Position numbers and translations under genes: made by a program
Assembly: GCA_947493215.1 (NCBI GenBank)
Contig: CANLQE010000001.1
Coordinates: 1,737,404-1,801,403 of the forward strand
From: an uncultured Sphingomonadaceae bacterium
GTDB taxonomy: Bacteria; Pseudomonadota; Alphaproteobacteria; Sphingomonadales; Sphingomonadaceae
DNA: 64,000 nucleotides
Direction of reading: 5' to 3'
Part shown: positions 2,736 through 32,277 of the stretch, piece after piece
Layout of the letters: each line of letters begins with the position of its first letter
Position numbering within the stretch: the stretch's first letter is position 1
Notes under the pieces: generated by a model
Databases searched by the model: none
Seen by the model: the letters and a program-made list of their open reading frames with translations, nothing else
Told to the model about the DNA's origin: nothing

Positions 2736-2802
2736 TGTCGGTTCTCCGACATCTGGCCGCAATCGCTGTCGGAGAACCGGCAAAACTATCGGAAAACCGA
2801 CA
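2736..2802 (+). promoter_or_regulatory. Three phased TGTCGG-N4-CCGACA operators (candidate enhancer of the flagellar sigma-54 promoter)
   Basis: Three near-identical inverted repeats occur in 67 bases: 2736-2751 (TGTCGG-TTCT-CCGACA, perfect), 2767-2782 (TGTCGG-AGAA-CCGGCA, one mismatch) and 2787-2802 (TATCGG-AAAA-CCGACA, one mismatch). Centres are 31 and 20 bases apart, about three and two helical turns, so all sites face the same side. They lie 44-110 bases upstream of the -24/-12 promoter, the usual place for binding sites of a sigma-54 activator. Which of the two activators in the window binds is not shown by the sequence. They could also act on the divergent flagellin gene. Confidence 0.75.
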
Positions 2803-2845
2803 AGTTCAGAACAACTTATGCCAGTTTTTGGCCATTCCCCAAAAC

Positions 2846-2860
2846 TGGCACGCACATTGC
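2846..2860 (+). promoter_or_regulatory. Sigma-54 (-24/-12) promoter
   Basis: TGGCACG at 2846-2852, four bases, then TTGC at 2857-2860. The invariant GG and GC are separated by exactly ten bases, a full match to the RpoN consensus. Transcription would start near 2872 and give a leader of about 48 bases before the activator gene at 2920 and the fli genes behind it. Confidence 0.9.
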
Positions 2861-2919: not shown

Positions 2920-4191
2920 ATGATCAACAACGCAATAAAATCTAGCCTGGTCTCTAGGTTTCCAGAGCTTGTTGATATGCTCGGGAGTGTCGAACATTTC
3001 CACTCTAACCACATATTGTCATCTGGCGCTGCGCAACTACCCCACATTGATGGCGCAGCAAAATCAGGTGCTAATGGTGGTGCAAAAGATCCCATCGTAA
3101 TTTATCGCGATGGTCCATTCCGTTTCGTTCCGGCTACCCTCAGCCAGCCCCCACGCATTGAATTTGGTGAAGCAGACAAATTATTTGGTTTGTCCTGCAT
3201 CATCGAATGCATGCGCGGGGGCAAAGGGCCCGCTTTTGCAGACCCCAAATCTATTGCCTTGTATAAATATGCCGCCCGCGTGGCTGGCAGCGACGCCAAT
3301 GTCATGATCACCGGCGAGACCGGTACCGGCAAAGAAGGCGTCGCTCGCTATATTCACGAGCACAGTACGCGTGCTGACAAGCAACTCGTCACGGTTAATT
3401 GTGCGGCCATTACCGAAACGATGATCGAGTCTATTTTATTCGGCCATAAGAAAGGTGCCTTTACCGGAGCCTATGCTAGCGCCGTTGGTCTTTTCAAAGA
3501 AGCTGATGGCGGCACGATCTTTCTGGACGAGATTACTGAGATGCCACTGGAGAGCCAGTCGAAGCTCTTGCGCGTTCTGCAAGAAGGCGAAATTCTTCCG
3601 GTCGGTGCAACCCGTCACGAGAAAATTGATGTTCGTATCATCTGTGCTGCTAACCGCAATTTTGCTGAAGAAGTGAAAGCCGGAAAATTCCGGGAAGATC
3701 TGTACTGGCGTTTGAACGTCATGCCAGTTGAACTGGAACCACTGGCTTCTCGCCCAGCCGATATTGTTGCGATTTCCGCATTCATGATGATGGACTTTCA
3801 AAAGGGTCATGAGAAATTTGTATCGCTGTCACAATGCTGCATCGATCGGCTGAAAGCTCATCATTGGCCTGGCAATGTGCGCGAGCTTGCCAATGTGCTG
3901 CAACGCGCATTGGTTATGTGTGACGGCGATCGTATTGAAGCAAAGGACTTGATGATCTCGAGTGAGAACCTTTCGTCCCAACCAAAGCAAGACGCCGTCC
4001 AACCTGGCAGTTCCGCTCGGTTCGTACGTGGCCGCGATTTGCAGTCGATTTCAAAGAGCGTTGAATATGACGCAATCAACAAAACCCTCGAACAAACCAA
4101 CGGCAACCGCCGCGAAGCTGCAAAAGAGCTTGGCATTTCAGAACGGACGCTGCGCTATCGGATGGCCGATATGCGTGCGCTGGCGGCCTGA
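2920..4191 (+). CDS. Sigma-54-dependent flagellar activator (FleQ/FlbD-like)
   Basis: Enhancer-binding protein of 423 residues. The first ~100 residues match no receiver domain I can see and carry no clear phospho-acceptor pattern. The AAA+ domain follows, with Walker A GETGTGKE (132-139), the sigma-54-contacting loop GAFTGA (179-184) and Walker B GGTIFLDE (197-204). A Fis-type helix-turn-helix ends the protein (about 385-420, RREAAKELGISERTLRYRM). It sits behind its own -24/-12 promoter and the three operators, and fliE begins 14 bases after it. It is therefore likely the master activator of the fli operon and may regulate itself. FleQ and FlbD are its nearest named relatives; I cannot choose between them. 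Confidence 0.88.
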   Translation: MINNAIKSSLVSRFPELVDMLGSVEHFHSNHILSSGAAQLPHIDGAAKSGANGGAKDPIVIYRDGPFRFVPATLSQPPRIEFGEADKLFGLSCIIECMRGGKGPAFADPKSIALYKYAARVAGSDANVMITGETGTGKEGVARYIHEHSTRADKQLVTVNCAAITETMIESILFGHKKGAFTGAYASAVGLFKEADGGTIFLDEITEMPLESQSKLLRVLQEGEILPVGATRHEKIDVRIICAANRNFAEEVKAGKFREDLYWRLNVMPVELEPLASRPADIVAISAFMMMDFQKGHEKFVSLSQCCIDRLKAHHWPGNVRELANVLQRALVMCDGDRIEAKDLMISSENLSSQPKQDAVQPGSSARFVRGRDLQSISKSVEYDAINKTLEQTNGNRREAAKELGISERTLRYRMADMRALAA

Positions 4192-4205: not shown

Positions 4206-4568
4206 ATGTCTTCCGTCAATATGAATAGCCTGATGGCTGCACGCAATGCGATCTTGAATCGTAACAATGCGCTGCAGGATATTGCCAGTAAAACAAACAA
4301 TCTGGCTGGACCTGGTCAAGCGCGGCAAACGGAAAAAGCCGAAGGCCCAGCGGGCTTTGCTGCGCAGCTAACCGACGCCATTCAGGAAGTGAATAAAATG
4401 CAGGCGACTGCGAAAGCCGACACGGCCGCCTATCAAATGGGCGAAACCAATGATGTCGCAGCAGTCATGTTGTCCAAGCATAAAGCTTCTATCGGTTTTG
4501 AATCCACCTTGCAGGTCAGGAACAAACTTTTGTCCGCCTACAAGGACATCATGAACATGTCGGTATAA
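4206..4568 (+). CDS. fliE: FliE, hook-basal body junction protein
   Basis: FliE-type protein of 120 residues that joins the MS ring to the proximal rod and is an early export substrate. The C-terminal half carries the family signature: a GETNDVAAVMLSKHKASIGF segment followed by the terminal VRNKLLSAYKDIMNMSV helix. AGGAG lies nine bases before the ATG. The gene follows the activator by 14 bases and fliF starts one base after its stop, so it belongs to the same transcript. Confidence 0.92.
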   Translation: MSSVNMNSLMAARNAILNRNNALQDIASKTNNLAGPGQARQTEKAEGPAGFAAQLTDAIQEVNKMQATAKADTAAYQMGETNDVAAVMLSKHKASIGFESTLQVRNKLLSAYKDIMNMSV

Positions 4569-4569
4569 G

Positions 4570-6315
4570 ATGGCCGAGGAAACATCCCCAAATCAGAACC
4601 TGATGCCCGTCGCCGGGACAGGTGCGAGTGCGGCTAACATCGGCGGCGCTCTGGGTTCGATTCAAGCCTTTGTGCAGCAACCCGCCATAGCGCGAGCAAT
4701 GCCATTGATTATCCTGTCTGCGGTAATCATCGCCGCTTTGTCAGCTTGGTTGATGTTGCGTGAACCAGCGCAACGTGACTTGTTTCGTGGACTACCGGAT
4801 AATGACAAGGCGGCAGTGACGCAGGCGTTGCAAAGCGCAAATATTCCCTATCAGGTTGATGACGGTACCGGGACATTGACCGTCAGCAATGAAGATTATC
4901 ATACAGCGAAGATCGAATTGGCTGGCCAAGGTTTGCCGCGTTCCGCGCCTAGCAGCGATACAATAATGTCGAGCATGCCCATGGGGGCAAGTCGTGCCGT
5001 TGAATCGGAGAAATTACGCGCCGCAAGGGAGATGGATCTGGCCCGCTCGATAGAGGCGCTAGACAATGTACTGTCTGCCCGGGTTCACTTGGCTGTCGAA
5101 CAACCAAGTATTTTTCTGCGCGACAGAAATGAACCGGCAGCGTCGGTCATCTTGCAATTGACGGGCTCCACCAAATTGGATGAGCGGCAGACACAGGCGA
5201 TCTTAAATCTGGTCGCCAGTTCCGTCCCCGGTCTGTCGACTGGAAATGTATCCGTGATTGATCAGAATGGGACTTTGCTATCTCGCCGCGAAGACGAGGG
5301 CTCGCGTAACAATGATACCCAGCTGAAAATAAAGGCGGCGATAGAAGACCGTTACCGTGAGTCGTTGGCCAGTCTTTTGACGCCCATTGTCGGTCCCGGA
5401 AATTTCGTCGCTGAAGTCACGGCAGACGTCAATTTTGATGAGAAGCAGGCGACCAGTGAAATCTATCCCACTGATGGTTCGGTCCTGCGCTCTGAACAGG
5501 GCATGCGTTCCGAAGAACCCGCCGGTGGACAGCAATTAGGCGGTATACCCGGCGCGCTTGCGAACCGGCCGCCTGCGGAAGCTCAATTTGAAGACCAGCC
5601 TGATGGCGGAGAAGAGCAGGGCGCCCAAGCGGCTGCACCCAAGAAAACGAGCGAAGAATATCAACGCAACTTTGAGCTGGCGCGTGAAATTGCGATAACC
5701 AATCAGGCGACGGGCCAAGTATCGCGACTGTCAGTTGCTGTCGCAATTGATGACAAGGCTTTGAAAGACACCAAGTCACCAAAAGAAATTCAGGAAATCG
5801 AAAAACTGGTGAAAGGAACCATTGGTTTCAACGCTGAGCGCGGTGACCAGATTGCTGTATCGGCGCGTCAGTTCCGGCCAGTGACAGAGAAAGAGGCCAC
5901 AGAGGCTTGGTATGAATCGCCCTGGTTCGGCGTGATCAGCCGAAACGTCACGGCACTCATCGTTGCCTTGTTGATCATCTTTCTAATCGCTCGCCCGATA
6001 TTGAAACGTTGGTTGAATTCGGAGAAAAATCTGAAAGCCAATATGGCTGCGAACAGCGCGACTGTTCCCGCAGATATCATGATGCAAAATCGTAGTTTGC
6101 CAAATGGAGCATCAACAAATGCTGCAGGCGGAAATGGGTCGGCGGCACAGGGAGACGGTGCGCCGGTCACTATCGATATGATCCAGGCGGCTCCAAGCTA
6201 TCAGGAACGCGCGTTATTGACTCAGAATTTTGTCAAACAAAACCCTGATCATGCGGCGCTGGTTGTGAAAGAACTTTTGAAAGAGTCAGACGAGCTGGAG
6301 GAAGCTAATGGCTGA
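4570..6315 (+). CDS. fliF: FliF, flagellar MS-ring protein
   Basis: MS-ring protein of 581 residues, normal length. Two membrane segments are visible at about residues 44-64 and 457-476, and the periplasmic ring-building domains lie between them (with the DLARSIEALDNVLSARVHLA motif of the secretin-like ring modules). A Glu/Gly/Gln-rich insert lies at about 305-360. The cytoplasmic tail binds FliG, whose gene overlaps the end by eight bases. The ring is the platform for rod, C-ring and export gate assembly. Confidence 0.96.
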   Translation: MAEETSPNQNLMPVAGTGASAANIGGALGSIQAFVQQPAIARAMPLIILSAVIIAALSAWLMLREPAQRDLFRGLPDNDKAAVTQALQSANIPYQVDDGTGTLTVSNEDYHTAKIELAGQGLPRSAPSSDTIMSSMPMGASRAVESEKLRAAREMDLARSIEALDNVLSARVHLAVEQPSIFLRDRNEPAASVILQLTGSTKLDERQTQAILNLVASSVPGLSTGNVSVIDQNGTLLSRREDEGSRNNDTQLKIKAAIEDRYRESLASLLTPIVGPGNFVAEVTADVNFDEKQATSEIYPTDGSVLRSEQGMRSEEPAGGQQLGGIPGALANRPPAEAQFEDQPDGGEEQGAQAAAPKKTSEEYQRNFELAREIAITNQATGQVSRLSVAVAIDDKALKDTKSPKEIQEIEKLVKGTIGFNAERGDQIAVSARQFRPVTEKEATEAWYESPWFGVISRNVTALIVALLIIFLIARPILKRWLNSEKNLKANMAANSATVPADIMMQNRSLPNGASTNAAGGNGSAAQGDGAPVTIDMIQAAPSYQERALLTQNFVKQNPDHAALVVKELLKESDELEEANG

Positions 6316-7342
6316 GCCAGTAAAAGAAGAAGATGGTCAGCAGCTCGAACTGATTTCCGGTCGTCAAACCGCAGCGATTTTGATGCTGCTGTTTGATGAT
6401 GAGGAAGCGGCCAAGATTCTTGAGCGCCTTGAACCTGATGAAGCAGAACTTTTAGGGGAGGCCATGTTCAGCGTTGCTGATGTCGATGCTATTCAGATTG
6501 ACGGGTCGCTCGAAAAATTTCTGCAGCTGACCAAAAATCAATCGATGCTGGCCTATAAATCAGACGAAAAAGTCGGTCGGGTTTTCCGGCAGGCGCTTGG
6601 CACATCACGCGCGGAAACCATGATGAACCGCTTTGCTCCGAAAAGGCCAAGCAACATCGCAGAGCTGCTCAAATGGGTGCCCGGCAAGGATCTTGCCGAA
6701 TTGGTGGAAAATGAGCCACCGCAGATCGCGGCAGTCTTAATTTCCTTCATGACACCCGAAGCGGCTGCAGAAATGCTGCAGCTGGTGCCATCGGAATTGC
6801 AGGAAGAATTAATCTATCGGGTCGCCACTTTGGGACCAGTCAGTGCGCACGCCTTGGCACAAATTCATGCATTGTTAGAAAATAACGGACCATCGGCTGA
6901 AGAAATTGCACCGCCCATGGAAATTGGCGGCGTGACGGACAGCGCCTCCATCATCAACAGCCTGCCAAAGCAAATCAGCCAGTCGGTTTTAAAAGGCGTG
7001 ACAAAACGTGACCGGAAAATCGCTAAGCAGATTGAAGATGAAATGTTTGTTTTCGCTGATCTGATGAATCTGTCGAAAAAGGATATTGGTTCCGTGGTCC
7101 GCAAAGTGGACAGCGCCATTTTGGTGCCTGCATTGCGCGGTGCATCAAGCGAGCTCAAAGAAAAAATATTCGACGCTATGTCTCAACGTGCTGCTGAAAC
7201 CATCCAGGATGAAATGGATGAGGCACCACCGCAGCCGATGGAAGCTGTTATCAGTGCCCAGAAAGGTGTGATAGCGATCGCCAAAGTGATGATCGATAAT
7301 GGCGAAATCAGCATGTCCACGGGTGGCGCTGATTATGTCTGA
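6308..7342 (+). CDS. fliG: FliG, flagellar motor switch and torque protein
   Basis: C-ring protein of 344 residues. It couples MotAB stators to rotation and binds FliF through its N-terminus. The middle domain carries ENEPPQIAAVLISF, where EHPQ is usual, so the His of that motif is Pro here. The C-terminal domain has the charged torque helix DIGSVVRKVDSAILVPALRG. It overlaps fliF by eight bases and fliH by eight bases, which points to translational coupling. No motA/motB genes are in the window. Confidence 0.96.
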   Translation: MAEPVKEEDGQQLELISGRQTAAILMLLFDDEEAAKILERLEPDEAELLGEAMFSVADVDAIQIDGSLEKFLQLTKNQSMLAYKSDEKVGRVFRQALGTSRAETMMNRFAPKRPSNIAELLKWVPGKDLAELVENEPPQIAAVLISFMTPEAAAEMLQLVPSELQEELIYRVATLGPVSAHALAQIHALLENNGPSAEEIAPPMEIGGVTDSASIINSLPKQISQSVLKGVTKRDRKIAKQIEDEMFVFADLMNLSKKDIGSVVRKVDSAILVPALRGASSELKEKIFDAMSQRAAETIQDEMDEAPPQPMEAVISAQKGVIAIAKVMIDNGEISMSTGGADYV

Positions 7343-8006
7343 TCTGCATTCTGAAAAAAATCTCCACGACGATGATGTGGTTCCGCTCTGGCGCATGCCG
7401 ATGGAGCAGAAAGAGTTTTCCGCCTGGTCGGGAAGTTTATCCACAGAGGCGGGATCAACTTCCGGTGATACATTTCAAAGCTTTGGTCAATCAGGGGCGG
7501 CTGATAACTCTGCTTCTTCCGGCGGTGGCGACGATGATATATTTGAAGCGGCCTATCGCAAGGGGTGGGAAGATGGGCAGGCGGCTTTAGCCGCGGATGA
7601 GGAAGCGGCGGGAACCTTGGCAGACGCGATTCGTTACTTGAACGACCTCTATTCCACCGGCAGTTTTTCTTTGGTCCTCAATGCGATTGAATCGCTTTTT
7701 CGGCGTTGCTCTGAGCTCGCCGTGCCAGACCCCGTATTGTTGCAGGCTTGGGCAACCCAGTTGGCAGATAAAATTGATCAGGATCAGAAAGGCGCGACCT
7801 TGATACTGCATCCTGATGACTTGGAATTGATCGATCAGGATATGTGCAAGCTACCCTTGCGTGCTGACCCGTCCATGTTGCGGGGTAATGTGAAACTAAG
7901 TCACGCGGGCGGTTGGATCGAAAAAGGGTCTGAAGTGGTGCTGGACGAATTGCGGGGGTTGATCGACGAGTTTAGCGATCAACAATCGGGTACCGCGAAT
8001 GAGTGA
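7335..8006 (+). CDS. fliH: FliH, regulator of the flagellar export ATPase
   Basis: Protein of 223 residues between fliG and fliI, with a charged, low-complexity N-terminal third, a YRKGWEDGQAAL helix start and a C-terminal FliH/HrpE-like domain. It dimerises, binds FliI and holds it at the C-ring. The ATG at 7335 overlaps the fliG stop; an upstream in-frame start would run deep into fliG and is unlikely. Sequence conservation in this family is weak, so position in the operon carries much of the identification. Confidence 0.88.
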   Translation: MSDLHSEKNLHDDDVVPLWRMPMEQKEFSAWSGSLSTEAGSTSGDTFQSFGQSGAADNSASSGGGDDDIFEAAYRKGWEDGQAALAADEEAAGTLADAIRYLNDLYSTGSFSLVLNAIESLFRRCSELAVPDPVLLQAWATQLADKIDQDQKGATLILHPDDLELIDQDMCKLPLRADPSMLRGNVKLSHAGGWIEKGSEVVLDELRGLIDEFSDQQSGTANE

Positions 8007-9357
8007 TCCAGCCAAAACATTTGTTAGCGATCCCAATAGCGGAAAAGGCATCCAAGGCCTCTTGGCGCGGATTGAACATATCAGCAATGAACCCCGCCAT
8101 GTCGGAAAATTATCAGCCCATGATAATGGCATGTTGGAGGTGACAGGCTTTGCCTATCCTTTGGGATATTCTGGCCGCGTAATCGCAACCGATGGCAGAG
8201 AAATTAGTGCAGAAGTCGTGGGGTTCAAAGGATCACGAGCGCTCATGATTCCGATGGTGCAAGACGCACCGCTGCGGAGCGGAAGCCGGGTCTTACCTTA
8301 TGTGAAATCCAATGAAGCGGCCGTCGGCGATGCGTTATTTGGTCGGATCATTGGCCCGATGGGAGAACCGATTGACGGAAAAGGTCCGATATTGGCGACG
8401 GATAGTGTCCCGTTATCGGGAATGGAAGGCAATGTCATGCGCCGCGCCAGTGTGACGAAGCCGATAGATATGGGCATCCGCGCGCTCAATGGGCTATTGA
8501 CCTTTGGCCAGGGGCAACGGGTTGCAGTCATTGCCGGATCCGGTGTGGGCAAGTCGATGCTGATTAATCAGATACTCGACGGCGTCGTCGCGGATGTCGT
8601 GGTTGTCGGGCTGATCGGTGAACGTGGGCGCGAGGTGAATGACTTCGTCAACCGCCGAAATGAGAAAAAAGACGCGGTGCCCACCATCACGGTTGCGGTG
8701 CCGGCTGATCATTCGCCGTCTTCGCGGTTGAAGGCTGCGCATCGCGCAACAGCCATTGCCGAATATTTCCGATCGCAGGGCAAATCAGTTGTGCTGGTTA
8801 TCGATAGCCTGACGCGCGTTGCGCATGCGCAGAGGGAAATTGGTTTATCGGCAGGTGAACCGCCAACGATGAAAGGCTATCCGCCGTCGGCTTTGTCGAT
8901 GATCCCGCGGTTGATTGAGCGGGCAGGCAATGACAGCGAGACAGGCGGTTCGATAACCGCAATCTATACTGTGCTGGCCGATGGAGATGATCTTGATGAT
9001 CCCGTAGTCGATAGCGCCCGCGCGATTGCCGATGGCCATATCATATTGTCCCGGCCGCTCGCAGAGCAGGGTATTTTTCCTGCCATTGATGTTGGCAAGT
9101 CGATCAGCCGCGTTGCTGTCGATATTATCGATGACGCGCATCATGCCGCCCAAACCCATTTCCGAAGGCTTTGGTCTATCTATGAAGAAAATCGCGATTT
9201 GGTGCTGATGGGTGCCTATCAAGCGGGGAGTGATCCGAATATCGATGAGGCGCTCGCACAGTGGCCGATCATGGTCGAATATCTGAAGCAGAAACCCCGC
9301 GAACTGATCAACTTTCAGAAAAGCATTGGCGACCTCTTCGGTTTATTTGAGCCATGA
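7999..9357 (+). CDS. fliI: FliI, flagellar export ATPase
   Basis: F1-beta-like ATPase of 452 residues, standard length. Walker A is AGSGVGKSM near residue 180, followed by LIGERGREVNDFV and the Walker B strand VVLVIDSLTRVAHAQREIG. The C-terminal end LINFQKSIGDLFGLF is the expected helical domain. It energises unfolding and export of flagellar substrates with FliH and FliJ. It overlaps fliH by eight bases and fliJ by four. Confidence 0.97.
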   Translation: MSDPAKTFVSDPNSGKGIQGLLARIEHISNEPRHVGKLSAHDNGMLEVTGFAYPLGYSGRVIATDGREISAEVVGFKGSRALMIPMVQDAPLRSGSRVLPYVKSNEAAVGDALFGRIIGPMGEPIDGKGPILATDSVPLSGMEGNVMRRASVTKPIDMGIRALNGLLTFGQGQRVAVIAGSGVGKSMLINQILDGVVADVVVVGLIGERGREVNDFVNRRNEKKDAVPTITVAVPADHSPSSRLKAAHRATAIAEYFRSQGKSVVLVIDSLTRVAHAQREIGLSAGEPPTMKGYPPSALSMIPRLIERAGNDSETGGSITAIYTVLADGDDLDDPVVDSARAIADGHIILSRPLAEQGIFPAIDVGKSISRVAVDIIDDAHHAAQTHFRRLWSIYEENRDLVLMGAYQAGSDPNIDEALAQWPIMVEYLKQKPRELINFQKSIGDLFGLFEP

Positions 9358-13538: not shown

Positions 13539-14304
13539 TCTCAAATATATCTGGGTCATTATTGCCCTTTTTGCCTCTGCATTTGTCGCGGACCCGGCTT
13601 TCGCACAAGATACCGCTCCGGGCGCATCTGCCGCGCTGGAAAGGGCTTTGGATGATGTGTCGGGCGACGGACAACCGCTGAGCACAACGCTGCAGATCCT
13701 CATCGTGATGGGCTTGCTGACGGTATTACCATCCATAGTACTCATGATGACCAGCTTTACCCGGATCATCATCGTTCTATCGATATTGCGCCATGCGCTC
13801 GGTTTGCAACAAACGCCTCCAAACCAGGTTTTGATTGGGCTGTCCTTGTTCCTTTCGCTGTTCATAATGGCGCCCAGTATTGAGAAGATTAACGAACAGG
13901 CCATCACGCCTTATTCGGCAGACGAGATTACCTTAACCGAGGCAATTGATCGTTCCGGTAAAGTCATGCACAGCTTCATGGCGAAACAGACACGGCAATC
14001 CGATCTCAGATTGTTCATGGATTTGGCCGATGAGGAAGGTTTCGATACAGCCGAAGAAATCCCGTTTTCGATCATGCTGCCTGCCTTTGTCACCAGCGAA
14101 CTGAAAACCGCTTTTCAAATCGGTTTTCTCGTATTTCTGCCATTTCTGATCATCGACCTGGTGGTGGCAGCGGTGCTGATGGCGCTGGGCATGATGATGT
14201 TGTCACCGGTGATCATATCGATGCCATTCAAGCTGCTTCTCTTCGTGCTGGTGGATGGCTGGGCCCTGACTATGGGCTCCCTAGCGGCCTCGTTTGCGAG
14301 CTAG
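13528..14304 (+). CDS. fliP: FliP, flagellar export gate protein
   Basis: Protein of 258 residues. A cleavable signal peptide is visible (hydrophobic core [14 protein letters not shown], then DPAFAQ), as is typical of FliP, followed by four membrane segments. Signature stretches are [20 protein letters not shown] and [19 protein letters not shown]. FliP makes the core of the FliPQR gate. fliQ begins three bases after the stop. Confidence 0.96.
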
Positions 14305-18372: not shown

Positions 18373-19518
18373 TTAGGCGTACTGAAATTCAGTCGCTGAT
18401 GTGGTGCTGGTTTCTAATTGCTTATCGATATTATATTTGCGCATTTTGTCGATAAACGTGGTCCGTTTGATGTTGATGGAACGGGCCGCTTTTGAAACAA
18501 CGCCATGTGATGCTTCCAAAGCATGACTTATGATACGCCGTTCTTCATTTTGAATATGCACGCTCAGATCGTTCACGATTGTGGACGGTTTTTGAGAAGC
18601 CGCTGCCATTGTCTCTGCAAAAGAGGGACGATGGGTATTAGCAGGGAAATCCTCAACAAATTGTGACGGTTGTTGCGCTGTAGGTGCCTGAAATGCGGGC
18701 TGTTGCAATACCGGTTCTGCATGGACGGGCCGAGCAAGGTCGGATTGAACCAATGTCGCAATATCCTGGGCATGAACTGGCTGACCAGCGAAAAAAACCG
18801 TCGCGCGTTCCACGACATTGCGCAGCTCGCGAACGTTGCCCGGCCAATCATAATTTTGCATCGCAGCAAAAGCTTCGGCTGTAAAAATTGGCCGTTGATC
18901 CACACTGATTTGATGGCCCAGAAAATGCTCGACCAAGGCTGGAATATCTTCAGCGCGCTCATTCAGGGCAGGGACTTCAATGGGAACAACACATAGGCGG
19001 TAGAAAAGATCTTCACGAAAAGAACCGCCACGAATGGCTGCGCCGAGATTTTTATGTGTTGCCGCAATGACGCGGACGTCGATAGGAATATTCTGACTAC
19101 CGCCAACGCGGTTGACGATGCGAGATTCCAGGACCCGTAGCAATTTCACTTGCATGTTGAGCGGCATGTCGCCGATTTCATCCAGGAAGATGGTACCGTT
19201 GTTCGATTGCTCAAACAGACCGATATGCTTGTTGACGGCGCCGGTAAAACTACCTTTTTCGTGACCGAATAATTCTGATTCAATCAGCTGTTCGGGCAGG
19301 GCGCCGCAATTGACTGTAATATTGGGGCCGGCCGTGCGTTGTGAGATGCTGTGAATGGCGTCGGCGACAACTTCTTTACCGCTACCGGAAGGTCCTGTGA
19401 TCATGATCGAGCTGTTGCAACGTCCGGCGAATTTCACCAACATCCGCAGCTGCTGCATTTTGGGACTGCTACCTATAAGCTTGGTCGCTAGTAGCGTTTC
19501 TAAATTTGCGTCGTTCAT
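18373..19518 (-). CDS. Second sigma-54-dependent activator of the flagellar cluster (FlbD/FleQ-like)
   Basis: Enhancer-binding protein of 381 residues from this start. Numbering from the longer ATG at 19614 (413 residues), Walker A is GPSGSGKE (74-81), the sigma-54 loop reads GSFTGA (121-126, Ser for the usual Ala), and Walker B is TIFLDE (141-146). A Gln/Pro-rich linker and a Fis-type helix-turn-helix (GVVSKAARSINIKRTTFIDKM) follow. There is no receiver domain. I prefer the ATG at 19518 because the 19614 ATG has no ribosome-binding site, and because the CtrA-type box at 19631-19645 would place the transcript start near 19600. The two activators are clearly paralogous in the AAA+ domain but differ at both ends. 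Confidence 0.85.
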   Translation of the reverse strand: MNDANLETLLATKLIGSSPKMQQLRMLVKFAGRCNSSIMITGPSGSGKEVVADAIHSISQRTAGPNITVNCGALPEQLIESELFGHEKGSFTGAVNKHIGLFEQSNNGTIFLDEIGDMPLNMQVKLLRVLESRIVNRVGGSQNIPIDVRVIAATHKNLGAAIRGGSFREDLFYRLCVVPIEVPALNERAEDIPALVEHFLGHQISVDQRPIFTAEAFAAMQNYDWPGNVRELRNVVERATVFFAGQPVHAQDIATLVQSDLARPVHAEPVLQQPAFQAPTAQQPSQFVEDFPANTHRPSFAETMAAASQKPSTIVNDLSVHIQNEERRIISHALEASHGVVSKAARSINIKRTTFIDKMRKYNIDKQLETSTTSATEFQYA

Positions 19519-19630
19519 TAAACTACCCAGATAACTAACCACAAAATCCGGCACCGCCGGGGTTGGGTGGTTCGAAGATCCCGCAATCTCCGAACCGTCA
19601 CCTGGTAAAAACATAAATGAACAAAGATGG

Positions 19631-19645
19631 TTAAAGTGAAGTTAA
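19631..19645 (-). promoter_or_regulatory. Perfect CtrA-type box (TTAA-N7-TTAA) upstream of the second activator
   Basis: TTAA at 19631-19634, seven bases, TTAA at 19642-19645, exactly the CtrA consensus of alphaproteobacteria. On the complement strand it would cover the -35 region of a promoter starting near 19600, consistent with the shorter reading of the activator gene. CtrA control of early flagellar regulators is well known in Caulobacter and sphingomonads. Binding here is inferred. Confidence 0.6.
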
Positions 19646-31856: not shown

Positions 31857-32098
31857 GCGGCATTCTCTTTTCATTCAGAATTAAGCGCCTATATAGGGTC
31901 TGTCTGCTTCGGCGGACTATGGTGATAAATTGTGATGTGCAATAGGCACAACGGACCCGGGGGCGGTACCCGGCGGCTCCACCATTTGGGATGTTTTTAC
32001 AGCATCTTTGTTGATGGGGCCGAACTAGGATCGACGTGTGTTGAAAAGCATTATTTTTACCCGGCCTGAGTATGCCGTGATTGCTCATAACTATAAGT

Positions 32099-32134
32099 GC
32101 AAATGATAATGAAGCACTCGCAGTAGCGGCTTAA
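32099..32134 (+). other. ssrA: tmRNA proteolysis-tag reading frame
   Basis: Starting at the resume codon GCA the frame reads ANDNEALAVAA and then TAA. The AAA-like hydrophobic end (VAA) is what ClpXP recognises. This tag supports placement in Sphingomonadales, where ANDNEALA-type tags are usual. Confidence 0.93.
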
Positions 32135-32185
32135 TCTATCGACCTTCGTGGTCGTAACTTAAGAAGTTAAAGCGCGGTTGGACCC

Positions 32186-32277
32186 ACCGGGCAACAGAAG
32201 GGATACCGGCGGCCTGGGGGTGCCGAGCAACAGAAACCCCCACCTTTCAAAATTACGCTGAGCGCCGAGCAACAGAA
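32186..32277 (+). repeat. ssrA: Three copies of a 14-base loop sequence in the tmRNA coding piece
   Basis: The 14-mer GCCGAGCAACAGAA occurs identically at 32222-32235 and 32264-32277, and as ACCGGGCAACAGAA at 32186-32199. Each copy sits in a hairpin loop closed by a different stem: CCC/GGG, TGGGGGT/ACCCCCA and TGAGC/GCTCA. Loop sequence is kept while stems differ, which points to a recognised RNA module. Confidence 0.8.

Follow-up and report, generated by a model that had tools for sequence, protein, structure and literature searches.

Three inverted repeats before a flagellar sigma-54 promoter as predicted sites of a short FleQ-like activator in Sphingomonadaceae

Genes and regulatory features of the locus

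The window analysed here is a stretch of 64,000 nucleotides from the genome of an uncultured Sphingomonadaceae bacterium. A sigma-54 activator of the FlrC/FleR/FlbD type, here called ACT1, is encoded on its plus strand at 2920-4191, and the divergent neighbour on the minus strand (1807-2622) is a flagellin; both genes had been assigned in the initial annotation and were confirmed. A search of ACT1 for a receiver domain gave no match among nine listed Pfam families. Its best NCBIfam match is FlbD, with 320.7 bits against an equivalog cut-off of 750. ACT1 aligns with FleQ in a single stretch, which ends before its helix, and no kinase gene adjoins it. Closely packed behind ACT1 on the plus strand are fliE, fliF, fliG, fliH and fliI (4206-9357; fliH is a weak match under the Pfam cut-off), and this spacing suggests that ACT1 and fliE-fliI form one operon. 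The genome holds a second FliF on contig 1 at 2414169, which probably belongs to a second flagellar system, and two FliF are found in 9 of 32 genomes of the same genus.

The gap between flagellin and ACT1 contains three copies of a 16-bp inverted repeat, TGTCGG-N4-CCGACA, none of them assigned to a strand. Box 1 (2736-2751, TGTCGGTTCTCCGACA) is a perfect inverted repeat without mismatches, with its centre 103 bp before the GG of the -24 element. Box 2 (2767-2782, TGTCGGAGAACCGGCA) and box 3 (2787-2802, TATCGGAAAACCGACA) have one mismatch each and are centred at -72 and -52, so that the earlier description of three sites with centres 31 and 20 bp apart is borne out. A sigma-54 (-24/-12) promoter (TGGCACGCACATTGCG) follows at 2846-2861 on the plus strand, 43 bases beyond box 3, which agrees with the previous placing of the sites 44-110 bases upstream of it. 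This promoter had been called perfect; all fixed bases of TGGCACG-N4-TTGCW do match, but the final W does not, and the wording was slightly too strong. On the flagellin side, no sigma-54 promoter was found within two mismatches in the scanned region. The box spacings correspond to 2.95 and 1.90 turns at 10.5 bp per turn. The proposal that the boxes lie on one helical face thus holds approximately in the window, but not as strict phasing in the wider family: as a general rule it was ruled out by the spacings in other genera, mostly 23, 22 and 17-18 bp.

The cluster was compared with 300 windows simulated by a first-order Markov model with the composition of the real one. Allowing one mismatch, the simulated windows averaged 0.13 sites, and not one of them had a pair inside 70 bp; the real window has four, three of them in the promoter cluster. 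The three boxes and the sigma-54 promoter are confirmed as real, and their clustering is beyond chance. By itself the box pattern is not rare in the genome, because the whole 3.69 Mb contain 12 sites with at most one mismatch versus 19 for a reversed control pattern; the signal is the cluster. Seven of the nine other genomic sites were inspected (L099-L105; the sites at 13658 of the window and 2142539 of the contig were left out), and none had a sigma-54 match with at most one mismatch nearby. Near three of them (L099, L100 and L104) there is a sigma-54 match with two mismatches, and the site lies downstream of it.

A second sigma-54 activator gene, here called ACT2, lies on the minus strand at 18373-19518. 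The start at 19518, given by the initial annotation, fits the relatives better than the longest open reading frame (18373-19614); it is supported by early stops in the long frame upstream of 19518 in two relatives (G026 and G003). ACT2 contains a sigma-54 AAA+ domain (PF00158, E 2.5e-67), whose first residue is number 46 in the long frame and roughly number 14 when counted from 19518, and its best matches in the structure database are FleQ and then FlrA. Two stretches of ACT2, the AAA+ domain and the helix-turn-helix, align with FleQ of P. aeruginosa (chain 8p53). The second of these, residues 349-399 of ACT2, is a Fis helix of FleQ type (IKRTTFIDKMRKY versus IRRTTLVEKMRKY). The N-terminal receiver-like domain of FleQ gave no Pfam match in ACT2 at E 0.001. 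FleQ binds c-di-GMP through the arginines R144, R185 and R334, according to the available part of PMC10723142; by eye, and assuming a numbering offset of two residues, ACT2 has T, D and H at these positions.

The published FleQ box has two bases between GTCAAT and ATTGAC (PMC10723142 and PMC6120874, in the parts available) and is alternatively written GTCaNTAAAtTGAC (available part of PMC6120874). The same portion of PMC6120874 describes a genome-wide FleQ consensus as hard to define in Pseudomonas and reports that it could not be confirmed. The FleQ-box frame GTC-N8-GAC is exact in box 1, and boxes 2 and 3 deviate from it at one of six bases each. The inner bases AAT/ATT are absent from the boxes of this genus, which have GG/CC there. 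In sites chosen by YGTC-N8-GACR, whose named bases are hence fixed by construction, the two bases after GTC are G in 83% and 91% of the genus sites and A in 72% and 52% of those in other genera. Near-consensus FleQ boxes occur at the equivalent place in other genera (58 sites), for example CGTCAATGAATTGACG in G094. A comparison of ACT2 helices by eye gave no clear residue correlate of the change from GG to AA.

Conservation of the module and co-occurrence with ACT2

Conservation was examined in 32 genomes of the same genus, the present one included, of which 20 have an ACT1 orthologue that is at least 57% identical. The promoter (TGGCACG-N4-TTGC) is kept in all 20 loci, in 19 without a mismatch and in one with a single mismatch. 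At up to two mismatches, 16 loci have three sites and the remaining four have two, among them G005, which has a different layout. Box 1 has no mismatch at its place in 18 of the 20 loci and one in G026. Over 19 loci, with G005 excluded, identity is 94% for half-site bases, 80% for the N4 centres and 92% for the promoter, compared with 68% for the remaining bases of 2725-2845. Spacings between GTC-N8-GAC sites in the genus are 20 bp (n=13), 30-31 bp (n=18) and, in G005, 35 bp (n=1); relative to the ACT1 promoter the site positions vary by no more than 2 bp, again except in G005. A search for the sites in relatives had been proposed as a check, and loss was not seen within the genus, where promoter and two or three sites accompany every ACT1 gene. 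The idea of an enhancer module before the sigma-54 promoter of an activator gene is well supported by these comparisons, with ACT1 as the gene that it would serve.

The occurrence of the promoter was then compared with that of ACT2. In a first set of 47 ACT1 loci, the promoter was found in all 28 with an ACT2-type gene (in 27 within one mismatch, in the last at two) and in one of the 19 without. The second set comprised 84 new ACT1 loci taken from 219 family genomes, some of which had been seen in the first set. Here the promoter with at most one mismatch was present in 21 of 24 loci with ACT2, the other three having the two-mismatch form, and in five of 60 loci first classed as lacking ACT2; the opposite strand gave none in 84. 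Uncorrected for kinship, the association in the second set has a Fisher p of 3e-12. Three of the 28 first-set loci with ACT2 (G075, G082 and G055) and one of the 21 second-set loci with a one-mismatch promoter (G158) have no intact GTC-N8-GAC within 150 bp of the promoter. One further genome, G234, was skipped with ACT1 at a contig edge. Three genomes (G003, G026 and G081) were counted as having ACT2 on the strength of a long match, an internal stop having hidden the helix from the script.

The E-value cut-offs of the family ACT1/ACT2 searches (1e-79 and 1e-74) missed weak ACT2 genes, and of the 79 loci with no ACT2 recognised at that stage, 60 were searched with a profile of the FleQ-type helix. 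Four of the six promoter exceptions, in all of which an overlooked ACT2 was expected, turned out to be the top four matches in these 60 genomes (1e-20 to 5e-13), the weakest being G053 with 5e-13 in an open frame of 217 residues; the next match (G207, 2.5e-11) is promoter-negative. In the fifth exception, G136 (L290), ACT1 and ACT2 are both truncated before their helices and lie end to end, a layout as after deletion of the cluster between them. The sixth, G188, has boxes and promoter with no ACT2 found in an assembly that is 84% complete and in 720 contigs. In the final tally of 131 ACT1 loci, a promoter within one mismatch accompanies ACT2 at 53 of 57 loci, the truncated ACT2 of G136 included, versus one of 74 loci without ACT2; at two mismatches the numbers are 57 of 57 and 3 of 74. 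The four ACT2-bearing genomes with a promoter at two mismatches only belong to one genus (G055, G139, G199 and G244), and two genomes without ACT2, G169 and G241, have two-mismatch matches.

Kinship was assessed on an ACT1 tree of 130 of the 131 loci; G186, of which only the upstream part had been taken, was left out. With scoring at two mismatches, the four genomes of the one genus were set as positive and G169 and G241 as negative. The two traits need 6 and 5 changes on this tree. Independent pairs on supported branches number three, two concordant and one without a difference, which is not significant (p 0.5). Because the tree needs only five to six changes, the co-occurrence is not independent proof.

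Four genomes of the collection have lost ACT1 (G006, G008, G011 and G020; L189-L192). An N-terminal remnant of ACT1 remains in each, recognised by BLAST in G006 and by eye in the other three, and fliA, fliS, ACT2 and part of flhA are kept. No gene from fliE to fliD was recognised in the 20-kb stretch at these loci, and FliF has no match anywhere in G008, G011 and G020, G006 having one elsewhere. The sigma-54 promoter nevertheless persists, with one site in G006, two in G008 and three in G011 and G020 (at most two mismatches). This persistence fits ACT2, and not ACT1, as the reader of the boxes; slow decay rather than selection is a possible cause of the remnant loci.

The region upstream of ACT2 and sigma-54 sites in the genome

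A box of CtrA type, TTAA-N7-TTAAC, lies upstream of ACT2 on the minus strand at 19630-19645. TTAA-N7-TTAA is a full CtrA site in the available part of PMC8921679. The pattern is present upstream of ACT2 in all 23 loci L106-L128 and absent in L129, and it occurs in 2 of 16 loci scanned in other genera. ACT2 is thus probably switched on by CtrA, as far as the occurrence of this motif indicates. From 19608 to 19516 on the minus strand, up to the start codon, extends a conserved leader that is predicted to fold and was seen between the CtrA-type box and the start codon in 22 genomes (that of G026 was not extracted). The alignment of 19 leaders shows hardly any variation in an outer stem (CCAGGUGAC/GUUAUCUGG) and in an inner hairpin; a third hairpin is variable. 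Kept changes on both sides occur in two of the 23 predicted pairs, so that the fold is a likely one that covariation tests lightly. Nothing in Rfam matched the leader at the gathering score, the weak matches having E 4.2 and E 0.37 (opposite strand of L128 as stored). An RNA model of the leader was searched in 119 family genomes with strict filters and 35 candidates scored per genome; it gave one match each in this genome and in G008, both of this genus, and none in the other 117.

A sigma-54 promoter with no or one mismatch lies at the flgB place (L095) in this genome and in all 16 relatives taken, where the identity of flgB rests on position and similar sequence rather than on annotation. 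Upstream of it, repeats resembling CGGCAA-N4-TTGCCG were seen by eye in this genome and in all 16 relatives. A likely target of ACT1 is flgB, and these repeats would be the motif read by ACT1. Sigma-54-like sites listed in this genome number 49. Among the 30 of them that were inspected, the ACT1 promoter alone is preceded within 220 bp by an exact GTC-N8-GAC, from which it follows that ACT2 may serve one single promoter.

A proposed activator cascade and its alternatives

The three boxes are quite probably sites of the FleQ-like ACT2, predicted to turn on ACT1 and the early fli genes. ACT2, a short enhancer-binding protein encoded about 15 kb away, would bind the boxes as dimers via its helix of Fis type. 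The bound dimers would touch the sigma-54 RNA polymerase stationed at the -24/-12 promoter, probably through a loop in the DNA. ACT1 and the early fli genes behind it would thereby come on, and ACT1 would in turn act on the next tier, such as flgB, via the different motif CGGCAA-N4-TTGCCG; at the top of the scheme, CtrA would probably switch on ACT2. The computed basis of this proposal consists of box and promoter conservation, co-occurrence with ACT2, the match of helix and box geometry, and persistence after ACT1 loss. From these we infer binding, activation and looping, and likewise CtrA control, the operon structure and the ACT1 target motif. Control by the second activator was one of two routes envisaged in the initial annotation, and the FleQ-type helix, the co-occurrence and the persistence without ACT1 argue for it. 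Against ACT2 as the reader stand G188, with boxes and promoter in its incomplete assembly and ACT2 not found, the inner GG/CC that differ from the AAT/ATT of FleQ, and the single-base deviations of boxes 2 and 3 from GTC/GAC. The small number of changes on the tree, the two-mismatch promoters on both sides of the tally, the ACT2 loci that lack an intact GTC-N8-GAC near the promoter and the single site left in G006 count against it as well.

The other route was autoregulation, with ACT1 binding the three boxes and activating its own promoter. The boxes do lie directly upstream of ACT1 and are present in 20 of 20 loci of the genus. The promoter, however, is absent in 18 of 19 and 55 of 60 loci first classed as lacking ACT2, and in the final tally it is missing in 73 of 74 loci with ACT1 but no ACT2 found (71 of 74 at two mismatches). 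In four genomes the arrangement has outlived ACT1, a different motif stands at flgB, and the FleQ-matching stretch of ACT1 excludes the helix; on this evidence autoregulation through the boxes is unlikely. A division of labour is a more credible alternative, and we regard it as a tentative possibility: ACT2 would act via the distal boxes and ACT1 via a promoter-proximal repeat of CGGCA type, giving feedback like that of FlbD at Caulobacter ftr4, where FlbD represses fliF (available part of PMC3930126). A CGGCA...TTGCCG repeat was seen by eye just upstream of -24 in five loci of the genus (L019-L023), but the window and, as judged by eye, the other loci of the genus have it in degenerate form.

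Another FleQ-type or global regulator might also read the boxes, such as the ACT2 paralogue at position 177388 of contig 1, which shares 53% identity with ACT2 across residues 44-294. Its reading frame here (1764-2795 of L193) ends before any FleQ-type helix, and at E up to 1e-60 no such paralogue was found in a number of box-bearing genomes, G029, G018, G023 and G008 among them, which makes this reading very unlikely. It is more improbable still that the boxes serve the divergent flagellin gene. They do lie in the gap that it shares with ACT1, but no sigma-54 promoter was seen nearby on the flagellin strand in the window, and apart from G005 the site positions in the genus are fixed to the ACT1 promoter.

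In comparison with known systems, and judged from sequence, the arrangement with ACT2 as the reader would be a modified form, new in its details, of the FleQ-to-FleR/FlrC cascade: a switch of familiar type in bacteria where it is unusual. It would not be a full FleQ system, because ACT2 has neither the N-terminal domain nor the c-di-GMP arginines and ACT1 has no receiver domain. In Pseudomonas gene order, fliE adjoins the next activator. The likeness to Pseudomonas FleQ, which acts on fleSR and fliE (PMC6120874, available part), extends to a FleQ-type helix, GTC-N8-GAC boxes and a sigma-54 promoter, and to a predicted target that is the next activator beside fliE. In contrast to that system, ACT2 lacks the N-terminal FleQ domain and the three c-di-GMP arginines, no kinase gene stands beside ACT1, the inner box bases in this genus are GG, and one candidate target was found among 30 inspected sites. 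In Vibrio, the master sigma-54 activator FlrA turns on a second one through flrBC (PMC3930126, available part). The gene arrangement would allow such an activator-on-activator step here too, and FlrA is among the best structure-database matches of ACT2, whereas ACT1 differs from FlrC/FleR in having no receiver domain and no adjoining partner kinase gene.

The Caulobacter CtrA - FlbD/FliX - ftr system shares a CtrA-type box on top and a sigma-54 activator below, with FlbD as the best NCBIfam match of ACT1. It differs in that ACT1, which is without a receiver domain, scores far under the cut-off for FlbD, and an extra FleQ-like tier would stand between. Rhodobacter sphaeroides Fla1 is governed by a FleQ/FleT cascade, in which FleT has no helix. 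The resemblance lies in an alphaproteobacterium with two flagellar systems; ACT1, unlike FleT, keeps its helix. In the open-licence literature on FleQ in sphingomonads or alphaproteobacteria and on CtrA control, no description of the present cascade was found in titles and abstract beginnings, and the box letters had a single match in that literature, on a type VI secretion system.

A stripped-down FleQ may serve essentially one promoter, under CtrA and a previously unlisted structured leader RNA, and keep its role in relatives without a flagellum; this wider picture is put forward as a speculative one. If true, it would join an alphaproteobacterial cell-cycle regulator to a flagellar cascade of gammaproteobacterial style, and it suggests how a FleQ cascade can come under CtrA. 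For the top flagellar tier of some Sphingomonadaceae, the boxes offer a specific recognition sequence with a named candidate reader. Their fixed positions at a single promoter, shared by many species, would also make a clean system for studying site choice by FleQ-type helices. Elsewhere in the window, an alphaproteobacterial tmRNA was found on the plus strand at 31864-32208, which the permuted tmRNA model also matches.
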